From NCBI RefSeq assembly GCF_021532375.1, contig NZ_JAKGAP010000013.1, positions 62,001 to 126,000 of the forward strand: 64,000 nucleotides of DNA, read 5' to 3'. The DNA comes from Paenibacillus alkaliterrae (lineage in GTDB: Bacteria > Bacillota > Bacilli > Paenibacillales > Paenibacillaceae). The position numbers and the translations under genes were made by a program. Shown piece by piece: positions 5,051-36,419 of the stretch. How positions within the stretch are numbered: the stretch's first letter is position 1; each line of letters starts with the position of its first letter. The notes under the pieces are model-generated. The model was not told the DNA's origin. It made no database searches and saw nothing but the letters and a program-made list of their open reading frames with translations.

Positions 5051-6409
5051 TTATGACTTCCGCTGTTTAAATTGCAGCGTAATCGTTGTACCAAGATCCG
5101 GCAAGCTGAAAACATCTACTTTGCCCTCATGCAAATCGACGATCCGTTTGGCAATGGACAAACCAAGGCCAACGCCGCCCGTAGTGCGGCTGCGGGCTCC
5201 ATCCACGCGGTAAAATCTTTCAAACAGATGGGGAATCTCGTTCTCCGGTATGCCCATCCCTTTATCCTTCACCTCAATCTTCACGATTTGCCGCGTAAGC
5301 GAGATGGTGACATCGATGGGATCCTTTGAATATTTAATCGCATTATCGAGTAATATGACCAGCAGTTGCCTAATTTTGTCCCTGTCGCCCACCATGCGAA
5401 CGACCTTGGACATCGCCTTAACGCGGATGGGACGTCCAAACGTCGTTTGCAGCATCGTGGCAAGCTCGTCGACTACATGCACGACGTCGAAAAGCTCCAG
5501 CCTCAGCCAATCCTCTTGCTCGGCCTCGGCAAGCATTAGCATCGATTTCGTTAAATTTTGCAAACGGTTTGCTTCTTTATCAATAGCCTCGATAGCTTCA
5601 TCACGCAAGCTTTCATCATCGCGTCCCCAACGCTTTAGCATCCCCGCATAGCTCGTAATAACCGTAAGAGGCGTTTTTAGCTCATGTGAGGCGTCGGCAA
5701 CAAATTGCTTCTGCTTAGCGAACGTACGGTCCAGCCGCTCGATCATTTGATTAAATGCGCGAACGAGCTGCAGCAATTCCGCAGATTCCTCTCGGCTGCC
5801 CAGTTCAATTTGCCGCAGCTTCCCGCTTCTGTCGATCTCCCGCATCGTATTCACCATTTGCTGTATCGGCGCCGTTAACCTTGACGTGAACCAATAGGTA
5901 CCGAATATAGCGAACAAAATGGCGCCTCCGCTCGTTATGCTGAGAGCAGCGACAAGCACCTGCAAATAATTGTCCAGCTCGTCCAAAATACGGTTAACCT
6001 CCAGCATGGCTATCACGCGGTTATCCTCGTAAAGCGGTACGCGCATAAATAAAATACGCTCTCCGCCTTTCGTAATCATACCTGTATGATGCAGAATCTC
6101 GAAGGTTGCAGGCAGCTGCAGCAGCAGCGGATCGGATCCCGTAATGTTGACTACCCTATTGTTTGGCACAATAATACGGATCATTTCATTCACGTTGTAA
6201 TATTCATTGAGCAGCTCCGGTGTATGGAGTCCTCGGCCGCTCTGTATTCGGGGATTCTCCAGCATGAGATTAACCTTATTCGCAATAACTTCCTCTTCAC
6301 TTTCCGTCGTGATCTTGATCACATAGAAGTAAACGAATATATTAAACAGAATCAAAATAAAAATAAGCCAAAATATGGTGAAAAGCGTGAACCTTTTGCG
6401 CAGTGTCAT
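5051..6409 (-). CDS. Membrane sensor histidine kinase (HAMP, HisKA, HATPase)
   Basis: A 452-residue class I histidine kinase. A first membrane helix (about 11-31) and a second (about 151-174) flank an extracytoplasmic sensor of roughly 120 residues; then HAMP, the H-box FVADASHELKTPLT with phospho-acceptor His242, and an HATPase domain with DNAIKY (N box), DKGMGIP (G1) and GGVGLGLSIAK (G2). Its start overlaps the end of the response regulator gene by four bases, so the pair is one operon. The signal is not evident from sequence. It resembles Gram-positive ArlS/CssS-like kinases in layout only. Confidence 0.93.
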   Translation of the reverse strand: MTLRKRFTLFTIFWLIFILILFNIFVYFYVIKITTESEEEVIANKVNLMLENPRIQSGRGLHTPELLNEYYNVNEMIRIIVPNNRVVNITGSDPLLLQLPATFEILHHTGMITKGGERILFMRVPLYEDNRVIAMLEVNRILDELDNYLQVLVAALSITSGGAILFAIFGTYWFTSRLTAPIQQMVNTMREIDRSGKLRQIELGSREESAELLQLVRAFNQMIERLDRTFAKQKQFVADASHELKTPLTVITSYAGMLKRWGRDDESLRDEAIEAIDKEANRLQNLTKSMLMLAEAEQEDWLRLELFDVVHVVDELATMLQTTFGRPIRVKAMSKVVRMVGDRDKIRQLLVILLDNAIKYSKDPIDVTISLTRQIVKIEVKDKGMGIPENEIPHLFERFYRVDGARSRTTGGVGLGLSIAKRIVDLHEGKVDVFSLPDLGTTITLQFKQRKS

Positions 6410-20660: not shown

Positions 20661-20870
20661 ACCCAAACCCTCATGGGGCTTCTACCCAAACCTTCAAAGG
20701 CTTCTACCCAAACCTTAAAGGCTTTCGAACCCTCCCAAACCCTCCCTTCCAAGGGAGGGCCCCAAGGACTGCGTCCTCTGGACACCTGCAATTGGACTAA
20801 CGCGGGAGAAAATGAGACGGTAGTGTGTTACGTTAGCTGTAGATCGCTTTCGTCCCTGCGGGACACGCTT
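20661..20870. repeat. Left arm of a long imperfect inverted repeat
   Basis: From about 20680 this arm pairs with 21884-22079 at roughly 85% identity by eye. It holds three copies of a ~21-base unit (TTCTACCCAAACCTT), a strong hairpin CCTCCCTT-CC-AAGGGAGG (20741-20759) and ends with a 26-base palindromic unit (20845-20870, core GTCCCTGCGGGAC). It carries no gene. Confidence 0.8.
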
Positions 20871-20983: not shown

Positions 20984-21087
20984 TACTTTGGTGATTCCAT
21001 AATATAATACTAAATCATTAATAAAAAGAAAAAAGAAAAAAGAAAATGCAAAAAGAAATATGGCGCTCAAGCTAGCTCAGAAACACC

Positions 21088-21116
21088 TCGATATACGAAC
21101 GTACGTTCGATAAAAC
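21088..21116 (+). promoter_or_regulatory. Promoter of the IS-derived ORF with a central LexA-type box
   Basis: TCGATA (21088-21093), 17-base spacer, TAAAAC (21111-21116). The spacer contains the perfect 14-base palindrome CGAACGTACGTTCG (21096-21109), which fits the Bacillus LexA operator CGAAC-N4-GTTCG. The -35 and -10 are moderate matches. Confidence 0.6.
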
Positions 21117-21121
21117 AGAAA

Positions 21122-21135
21122 CAAACATACGTTCG
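21122..21135 (+). promoter_or_regulatory. Second LexA-type box before the IS-derived ORF
   Basis: CAAACATACGTTCG differs from CGAAC-N4-GTTCG at one base and has the same form as the two boxes at the yneA promoter. It lies between the predicted -10 and the start codon at 21148 and overlaps the edge of the ribosome site GGAG. Confidence 0.5.
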
Positions 21136-21147
21136 GAGATGATCTAT

Positions 21148-21624
21148 ATGACGAAGCAAGAGACGATGACGTTCAACAAGTTCCAACAGAGATTCGATTC
21201 AGAAAAAGCATGTCACGATCATTTATTTCAACTGAAATGGACGAATGGATTTAGCTGTCCGAATTGCCAGATGAATAGAGAGACCGTAGAGACGTTTGTG
21301 AAAAAAAATATTGAAGTGAACTCTACCCTTATTGCGGATGGCCATCGGACGATCCTAACGCTGATAGACAACTACACCATTGAAGCAAAGAAGTTTAATG
21401 CAAAGGAAGATCCAGAACATCTCAAGTGGGTACAAACGCTGATCTCTAACCTCAAATCGTTTGTGCACGGTATTTTTCACGGTCTTGATTCTCGTCACCT
21501 GCAAAGTTATTTAGACGAGTTCTGCTATCGGTTCAATCGCAAGAAGTTCGTTGGGGAAGGATTTAATCGACTCCTTCATTCTTGTTTAGCCACAAAGACC
21601 ATTACCTATACTGAGCTAACTTGA
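21148..21624 (+). pseudogene. IS1595-family transposase remnant with in-frame internal deletion
   Basis: An open frame of 158 residues, about half the usual length. The N terminus (FQQRFDSEKACHDHLFQLKW then CPNC) is the zinc-ribbon start of IS1595 transposases. Directly after it come C-terminal catalytic-domain blocks: IEVNSTLIADGHRT, LISNLKSFVHGIFHG and YLDEFCYRFNRKKF. The second half of the zinc ribbon and the first catalytic Asp region are gone, so it should not transpose by itself. The frame has stayed open, and there is a ribosome site (GGAG, nine bases from ATG 21148). Stop codon lies in the right terminal repeat. It may act as a DNA-binding repressor or be neutral. Confidence 0.7.
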
Positions 21625-21769
21625 TAGCCATAAAATGCTTTAATAGAGCATGTCTGAGATTAGCTTCAGTTTTTCCAGTTCATACTGCCGGTGTAGACTT
21701 GGTTTTGCATGATTGATTAGTTCAACTTATATAGTTTCACAAAATGATACTAATGTCCTCCTCGCTTGA

Positions 21770-21883: not shown

Positions 21884-22079
21884 AAGCGTGTCCCGCAGGG
21901 ACGAAAGCGTTCAATGCTCAACCGTAACTCGCGAGCGACTGTTCTTCTCCCAGGTTCGTCCAATTGCGGGTGTCCAGAGGGTGCAACCCTTGGGGCCCTC
22001 CCTTGGAAGGGAGGGTTTGGGAGGGTTCGAAAGCCTTTAAGGTTTGGTAGCAAAAGCCTTTGAAGGTTTGGGTAGAAAA
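21884..22079. repeat. Right arm of the long inverted repeat
   Basis: Begins with the third 26-base unit (21884-21909), then pairs with the left arm through the CCTCCCTT/AAGGGAGG hairpin (about 21998-22016) to TTTGGGTAGAAAA. Its outer edge abuts the stop codon of the receiver-like gene at 22080-22082, so insertion of the repeat may have replaced that gene's original 3' flank. Confidence 0.8.
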
Positions 22080-27723: not shown

Positions 27724-27747
27724 GACCGTCCCTCTCCCATCAAACAT

Positions 27748-34628: not shown

Positions 34629-35618
34629 CTATTCGAATGGTCTGCGGAATTTGTGAATGAAGCGATTAGGATAATCATCCGGCAATGCGCTAACCTCATC
34701 CAATCGGCTCCACACCTCAGACGGAAGCTCCCAGCCGACTGCACCGATATTATCTTCAAACTGTTCCAATTTACTGGCGCCAAATATCGGGGAAGTCATG
34801 CCTTCACGCTGCAACAGCCATCTGAGCGCGACCTGTGCAGGTGTTTTACCTGCCTCCTGAGCCGCTTCCAACAGTGAGTCCAAGATAACAAAGTTTTTAT
34901 CAAGCGCACGATTTACCCAAGCGCTCTCGCCTGCTTTCGAGGTCAAGCGCCCCTCTTCCGGCATATTGCGATTGTATCGGCCCGTCAAGAAGCCTCCGCC
35001 AAGCGGAGCCCATGGGATGACACCAACCTTCTCCTCTATGCAAAGCGACATCATCTCGCGGTCCATCTGTCTGCTGACTAAGCTATATTGCGGCTGAATT
35101 GAAATGAATCGCACATATCGGTTAGCATCGCTGCAGGCAAGCGACTTCATCAGCTGCCAAGCAAAAAAATTCGAACAGCCTATGTAACGCACCTTACCGG
35201 AGGACACAAGATCGTCAAGCGTGCGCAGCGTTTCCTCGATCGGTGTTGCATGGTCCCATACGTGGACCTGGTATAAATCGATATAATCGGTTTGAAGCCG
35301 CTTTAAGCTGGCTTCAACGCCATCCATAATATGCTTCCGGGACAAGCCCACGCCATTAATATTACTGGAGGTGGTCATTCGAACCTTGGTGGCCAGTATT
35401 ATATCCGAACGTTTGTTCTTAATCGCTTTCCCGACAATTTCTTCAGACCGTCCGCTTACGTACACATCGGCCGTATCCAGAAAATTGCCCCCGCGGTCCA
35501 CGAAGCGATTAATCATTTCGATTGAATCTCCTTCGCTTGTCGTATTTCCAAACGTCATCGTCCCCAGACATAATTCCGAAACAGCGAGCCCGCTCTTACC
35601 TAACAGATTATATTTCAT
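34629..35618 (-). CDS. Aldo/keto reductase
   Basis: A 329-residue NADPH-dependent reductase of the (beta/alpha)8 AKR superfamily. FLDTADVYVSGRSEEIVGKA carries the catalytic Asp and Tyr, ATKVRM the Lys, and DLYQVHVWD the His. The C-terminal GASKLEQFEDNIGA binds the 2'-phosphate of NADPH. Closest in form to the YdhF/YhdN-like AKR11-13 groups. Substrate unknown. Confidence 0.9.
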   Translation of the reverse strand: MKYNLLGKSGLAVSELCLGTMTFGNTTSEGDSIEMINRFVDRGGNFLDTADVYVSGRSEEIVGKAIKNKRSDIILATKVRMTTSSNINGVGLSRKHIMDGVEASLKRLQTDYIDLYQVHVWDHATPIEETLRTLDDLVSSGKVRYIGCSNFFAWQLMKSLACSDANRYVRFISIQPQYSLVSRQMDREMMSLCIEEKVGVIPWAPLGGGFLTGRYNRNMPEEGRLTSKAGESAWVNRALDKNFVILDSLLEAAQEAGKTPAQVALRWLLQREGMTSPIFGASKLEQFEDNIGAVGWELPSEVWSRLDEVSALPDDYPNRFIHKFRRPFE

Positions 35619-36370: not shown

Positions 36371-36419
36371 CAAACGTTTGTTCTGTTTTCAGGATACACG
36401 AACAAACGTTTGGTGTCAA
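36371..36419 (-). promoter_or_regulatory. yneA promoter with two LexA boxes
   Basis: Minus strand TTGACA (36414-36419), 17-base spacer, TATCCT (36391-36396). Box 1 CGAACAAACGTTTG (36399-36412) fills the spacer. Box 2, AGAACAAACGTTTG on the minus strand (36371-36384), lies just after the -10. Both fit the Bacillus LexA operator with one or two deviations. Confidence 0.8.

Follow-up and report, generated by a model that had tools for sequence, protein, structure and literature searches.

What becomes of a transposase gene that has lost its middle and kept its promoter, and can such a remnant be turned into a small protein made in response to DNA damage? The question is raised by a locus in Paenibacillus alkaliterrae, contained in a stretch of 64,000 nucleotides that was analysed as a whole and is here called the window. 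The original prediction described an IS1595 remnant with an in-frame deletion and twin LexA-type boxes, and proposed that it had been exapted as a small protein; the description stands, and the exaptation is not supported. The main weight of the finding lies with the clade of the element and its DDE-less relatives, and not with the remnant alone.

Anatomy of the deleted element

The element in the window belongs to the IS1595 family and has an internal deletion and two LexA-type boxes, as first observed; it also retains both ends. Its features, all on the plus strand, are as follows (genomes, contigs and loci carry G, C and L numbers).

21059..21632, plus strand: IS1595-family element, internally deleted, 574 bp, with ends TATGGC...GCCATA as in the copy L039 of genome G044; also from alignment to the fuller copy G000:C167
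21059..21080, plus strand: left inverted end, TATGGCGCTCAAGCTAGCTCAG; read from the sequence and from comparison with the fuller copy and the G044 copy
21088..21093, plus strand: putative -35-like hexamer TCGATA (TTGTTG in the fuller copy), placed by comparison
21096..21109, plus strand: LexA-type box 1, CGAACGTACGTTCG, inside the 17-nt promoter spacer; site scan and comparison
21111..21116, plus strand: -10-like hexamer TAAAAC; comparison with 15 other IS1595-type twin-box starts, all ending in T
21122..21135, plus strand: LexA-type box 2, CAAACATACGTTCG, starting 26 nt after the start of box 1; site scan and comparison
21148..21624, plus strand: 158-codon open reading frame (ORF), half a zinc ribbon fused to the transposase's C-terminal half; ORF list, Pfam and alignment
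21270..21271, plus strand: deletion junction, 429 nt or 143 codons, in frame; alignment to the fuller copy G000:C167
21611..21632, plus strand: right inverted end, overlapping the stop codon of the ORF; read from the sequence and from comparison with the fuller and G044 copies

The element is placed at 21059-21632 because its inverted ends (21059-21080 and 21611-21632) are those of the intact G044 copy, which encodes 303 amino acids, starts with TATGGC, ends with GCCATA and has TAAATTTA on either side as an 8-bp duplication. Translation may start at the ATG at 21148 (158 codons) or at an upstream ATG at 21139 (161 codons), and the TGA ends at 21624. The ORF matches the zinc ribbon PF12760 with 30.4 bits (cut-off 25.4), over profile positions 2-27 of 46 only, and PF12762 with 60 bits, over positions 61-153 of 153; both IS1595 domains are above cut-off and both are partial, so that the middle of the transposase is missing. 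These partial matches, together with the in-frame gap of 143 codons relative to G000:C167, bear out the claim of an ORF that has lost the transposase middle and kept its frame open. The alignment to the fuller copy shows that the second half of the zinc ribbon, the HTH-like segment YPTAWLMLHKIR, which we take to be the helix-turn-helix of the transposase, and the first catalytic Asp pair have been lost. The IS1595 catalytic set, DDNK, is incomplete in the window copy, with the first Asp pair deleted and the DGH and N-x-K segments remaining.

The draft genome of the window (169 contigs) holds one fuller copy, G000:C167, which at its 3′ end gives way to foreign sequence at the edge of its contig. 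Since this sole fuller copy is itself cut off, no intact parent was seen in the draft genome, from whose assembly one could be absent. A contig scan with N-terminal patterns only gave one locus, apparently the G044 copy itself, in JAQSXN010000006.1 (Paenibacillus sp. MAG; 100% identity), and searches of plasmids and phages returned 12 and 2 records, respectively, all at less than 60% identity.

LexA-type boxes and the promoter

Two LexA-type boxes, the first in the promoter spacer, had been claimed for the remnant, and both were found, at 21096-21109 and 21122-21135. When the pattern CGAACRTRYGTTYG is searched on both strands with up to two mismatches, the window yields 20 rows in 12 places; shuffled windows average 4.8 rows, and none of 100 shuffles reaches 20. 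Across the genome, single GAACRNRYGTTY sites are at background (76, versus 72 for the reversed pattern), so that only the pairing of the boxes and their conserved place carry weight. The proposed likeness in box geometry to two other loci in the window is real: paired boxes stand at 36371 and 36399, in the intergenic region of genes that we take to be lexA and yneA, and at 27741 and 27767, at a helicase gene, presumably mrfA as it was named originally. Predicted sites of the operator GAACN4GTTC, which marks the LexA regulon, lie in the promoters of the window copy and of its IS1595 clade.

A sigma-70 scan requiring a final T in the -10 recovers no promoter in 21000-21700. At the -35 the remnant agrees with the consensus in 4/6 positions and the fuller copy in 3/6, the remnant being no worse. 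Two-mismatch LexA-like sites also occur in the window at 5719-5732 and at 35406-35419, the latter inside an aldo/keto-reductase-like ORF, where it looks like chance.

Conservation of the box pair across the IS1595 clade

The fuller copy bears the boxes CGAACGTATGTTTG and CAAACATACGTTTG at positions equivalent to those of the remnant, which rules out that the remnant gained them anew, and the same pair precedes 14 other IS1595-type starts in Paenibacillaceae. A scan of 394 Paenibacillaceae genomes for twin boxes with a -10 (up to three mismatches) gave 27 rows, or 25 distinct sites in 22 genomes, and the reversed pattern gave no site in the same genomes. Sixteen of the 25 sites are IS1595-type ORF starts (13 recognized by phmmer and three short starts by eye; L075, L076 and L090 belong to the DDE-less family treated in the next section), three are helicase starts and six are others. 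The last -10 base, left free in the scan pattern, is T at 15 of the 16 IS1595-type starts and C only in the window copy. Twin LexA-type boxes before non-IS1595 ORFs were seen in other genomes at L077, L080, L081, L083, L084 and L085.

At the level of the class, 21 of 398 genomes match, some of them with copies of the window's own family. Leaving aside L218, L219 and L227 (no usable ORF) and six loci of the window's family, 19 of 28 loci remain, and a core with up to one mismatch precedes 17/19 of them and a perfect core 11/19, compared with 3/19 and 0/19 in the control. Among the 13 with an intact DD the counts are 11/13 and 8/13 (control, two and none); two of the rows counted as lacking DD, L240 and L241, are short fragments. 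Because intact IS1595 transposases of other families carry cores, the LexA-box trait either predates the loss of the catalytic set or has more than one origin. The clade shares with the IS1595 family (NCBIfam NF033547; PF12760, PF12762) the zinc ribbon and DDE-type domain, the inverted ends and, at the intact G044 copy, the 8-bp duplication, but it differs from the IS1595 outgroups in the LexA-type twin operator of its promoter, a core being present in 0/4 outgroup elements and 0/1 in L183, a DDE IS1595 of another subgroup.

A DDE-less sister family

Searching the genus also yields IS1595-like proteins at about 30-45% identity. By profile search, 20 of the 51 genus genomes have genes without the DDE set, 29 in all, with one to four per genome and none containing internal stops; 27 of the 29 were read, with no locus for one gene of G026 and one of G043. 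Of the 394 family genomes, 97, spread over 12 of the 19 genera, match at E <= 1e-50, a count that takes in DDNK copies. Eight genomes were scored in full and gave 44 (G099), 21 (G074), 12 (G317), 11 (G128), 7 (G325), 6 (G309), 1 (G326) and 1 (G241) matches, of which only part were read as loci; the sole match in G241 is a broken DDNK copy.

The DDNK set is lost in 60/60 aligned DDE-less rows and kept in 9/9 IS rows, four of which come from another class or phylum; two DDE-less rows (G074c and G074d) keep an Asp in the first catalytic column only. Of the 23 members of set A3, two of which are IS rows, all have the zinc ribbon PF12760 and 10 match the Pfam DDE model (E <= 0.01). A branch of the tree with support 98/99 has the DDE-less rows on one side, and the G099 rows and IS rows meet as long branches, on which the tool issued a warning. 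The DDE-less proteins constitute a large, full-length and seemingly undescribed IS1595-derived family: a literature search without most subscription journals found no publication describing an inactive or DDE-less IS1595 family, and none tying IS1595 to LexA; two papers that mention both terms seem to concern other matters.

A core GAACN4GTTC with up to one mismatch lies between -300 and -60 of the KWxxG anchor at 59/60 DDE-less loci; at the sixtieth, L132, which has a long N-terminal extension, a box pair is located further upstream. Perfect cores, in a near-fixed place, are present at 49/60 loci, and core pairs 24-34 nt apart (up to two mismatches each) at 35/60. Control windows contained perfect cores in 0/57, 0/57 and 0/59 cases and cores with up to one mismatch in 6/57, 3/57 and 3/59, with a shuffled mean of 4.4/60. 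Left out of the count were L123 and L141 (no anchor; IS-type), the IS rows L038, L129, L122, L074 and L096, and L076 and L090 as duplicates of L153 and L165; the shuffles, here and for the ends below, were of single bases, with one per locus in the end test. Chance as the source of the conserved box pair is ruled out by the reversed, control-window and shuffled controls. The general notion behind the original proposal, an IS1595 protein without catalysis placed under LexA-type boxes, finds support in this different, full-length family.

Inverted ends and dispersed repeats

Inverted ends like CTTTGNNYACTATCCCNTNNGCTCAGGAA flank many DDE-less genes. End scores exceed the best shuffled control at 29/60 loci, for one of which (L155) the best match is not the end motif, and the motif is visible by eye at many other loci, with none at L111, L121, L126, L133 and L139. 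The end sequence varies by lineage, being for example CCGAAATCCCGCTCGCTCAGG in G074 and GCACGATTATCCCTTTCG in G099. Within the genus, the 20 genomes that carry a DDE-less gene contain 215 sites of the motif CACTNTCCCNTNNGCTCAG (up to one mismatch; the genes' own ends are counted), and the 31 that lack one contain 9 (Mann-Whitney p = 3e-10, a value that overstates independence because the genomes are related). In the three genomes where sites were told apart, 13/20 (G000), 4/6 (G002) and 5/7 (G005) lie away from the gene, and the dispersed sites of G000 occupy nine places, four of which are inverted pairs 37-91 nt apart. The motif tracks the gene and, at low copy number, is dispersed in G000; it may be a cognate repeat of the protein. 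Tandem arrays with one end motif per unit were observed beside two DDE-less genes, at L037 441-775 (G000:C46; six copies at 60 nt) and at L109 1661-2093 (G045:C28; 7.5 copies of a 57-nt unit).

Vertical inheritance and mobility

In G002, G034, G047 and G048 the DDE-less gene stands in shared, syntenic surroundings, as single copies in four species, and dN/dS ranges from 0.16 to 0.31 in the six pairs among them. It is nonetheless a substantial possibility, short of the likeliest, that full-length DDE-less elements are still mobile, by way of an unrecognised catalytic centre or of a transposase acting in trans. The 44, 21 and 12 matches in G099, G074 and G317 point in this direction, as do the similarity of copies (89-90% among those compared in G099, 98% for one pair in G074) and the inverted ends that score above the best shuffled control at 29/60 loci. 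The multi-copy elements of G074 and G099 are, however, similar past their end repeats, so that their boundaries cannot be fixed, and the 98% pair of G074 is among those sharing sequence beyond the ends. Mobility is further opposed by the syntenic single copies, by the second half of the protein, in which no acidic residue is plainly kept across genera when the alignment is read by eye, and by the lack of any PF12762 match at E <= 1e-8 in G099, G128 and G317.

Fate of the remnant

The remnant is best regarded as a decaying and probably dead copy, since two of its changes fall on conserved residues, H96Q (column H 7, N 2 in nine DDNK rows) and T109I (T in 9/9), and its -10 is without the final T; decay of promoter and coding sequence would be read here from single or few changes. 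A search for further copies of the deleted element, suggested as a check on the exaptation, found no second one among the 51 genus genomes (E <= 1e-20). The suggested look at selection gave a mixed answer: on the remnant branch (G044 as outgroup), 124 codons carry 10 changes that are synonymous and 6 that are nonsynonymous, with sites at about 1:4, so that nonsynonymous changes are fewer than under neutrality, but selection on the 158-codon ORF is unsupported because these changes cannot be dated relative to the deletion.

It is improbable, then, that the remnant was exapted as a damage-induced protein of 158 residues acting against its own IS's transposase, for instance in mixed oligomers formed through the C-terminal part. 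The constraint that such a small protein could be under, given 10 synonymous and 6 nonsynonymous changes against a neutral ratio of about 1:4, may predate the deletion; and the open frame, the in-frame deletion and the two retained boxes, all of which would suit the idea, have to be set against a single copy, a -10 without its final T, two altered near-invariant residues, the loss of the HTH-like segment and half the zinc ribbon, and an intact parent that was not seen. The boxes, moreover, come with the IS. An SOS-induced small protein accordingly finds no support in these comparisons, nor does a dominant-negative regulator of the parent IS, whose fuller copy is cut off at the contig edge.

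A model for LexA control and its place among known systems

The reading of the remnant as a decaying copy can be placed in a wider model. In the intact IS, box 1 fills the spacer between -35 and -10 and box 2 is located just downstream, an arrangement that is conserved. LexA on these boxes would block transcription of the transposase, and DNA damage would lift the block by the RecA-driven LexA cleavage through which SOS genes are released. The window copy would have inherited this LexA-type operator and lost 143 codons, after which promoter and coding sequence would have begun to decay. In the DDE-less family the same release would yield a DNA-binding protein acting on end-type repeats, including those beside its own promoter, and its anatomy would suit a protein that protects, marks or regulates repeats once damage has occurred. 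Judged from sequence, there is a strong likelihood that the window holds a probably dead, deleted IS copy from a Bacilli IS1595 clade with LexA-type promoter operators; its DDE-less sisters would act as SOS-induced DNA-binding proteins on end-type repeats, not as ordinary DDE transposases. Although LexA binding is a prediction and the boxes adjoin the ends, where the transposase binds, it is very improbable that another palindrome-reading regulator or the transposase itself occupies them, for they match the B. subtilis operator GAACN4GTTC (as given in PMC4234289) as well as the window's own lexA boxes, and the end sequences differ from the box sequences.

Few insertion sequences have so far been shown to be under LexA control: according to PMC13393415, ISCR1 and ISCR8 are reported to be SOS-controlled, SOS is involved for IS10, and the case of Tn5/IS50 is disputed. 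These elements resemble the present clade in having transposase expression tied to LexA or SOS, here by prediction, but they belong to other families and hosts, and here the operator is conserved across the whole Bacilli clade. A survey of C. difficile includes one transposase with a predicted LexA box (excerpts of PMC4234289). For Leptospira, nine ISlin1 transposases with predicted SOS boxes are described, of which one was tested and was not induced by UV-C (excerpts of PMC3789691), so that predicted boxes need not mean induction here. Internally deleted, non-autonomous IS derivatives resemble the window copy in keeping the ends and losing the middle, yet the window copy is single and gives no sign of movement after the deletion.

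The DDE-less family invites comparison with RAYT (TnpA-REP) and REP sequences, in which a transposase-derived gene goes together with scattered palindromic repeats whose sequence varies with the protein (PMC8266576), much as the end motif seems to do here. RAYTs are HuH enzymes, whereas the DDE-less family, IS1595-derived by profile and not of the HuH tyrosine nuclease type, has a DDE-type fold without catalytic residues and LexA-type boxes; its repeats are also far fewer than REPs, a genome having 1-35 motif sites when the ends of the gene itself are counted. Only tentatively, and with some doubt, may it be proposed that Bacilli, above all Paenibacillaceae, carry a large, catalytically dead, transposase-derived family that is made on damage and binds scattered end-type repeats, a DDE-derived and SOS-controlled counterpart of RAYT/REP descended from, or sister to, the IS clade that answers to LexA.

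With the operator kept inside promoter spacers in different families of Bacilli, transposition triggered by DNA damage would be open to testing in many hosts. The DDE-less family, whose proteins probably recognise the neighbouring repeats, poses the sharper question of why a transposase without an active site is kept, and in some genomes even multiplied to tens, under LexA-type boxes.

Surroundings of the remnant

Target duplications in the IS1595 family are 8 bp in length. The window element has no such duplication, its flanks being AAAAGAAA and AAATGCTT. To its right, at 21633-21735, there is a repeat of about 100 bp with 19 other places listed in the genome; in the ten of these 19 that were read, the sequence to the left of the repeat is unlike the left flank in the window. 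The element is not a simple fresh insertion, because it has no target duplication and its left flank is unlike that of the ten repeat copies read. Unrelated long inverted repeats bracket the element at 20680-20832 and 21923-22077 (125 nt with 87% complementarity, plus 24 nt that are perfect), and more copies of them are present elsewhere in the genome, on six or more further contigs.
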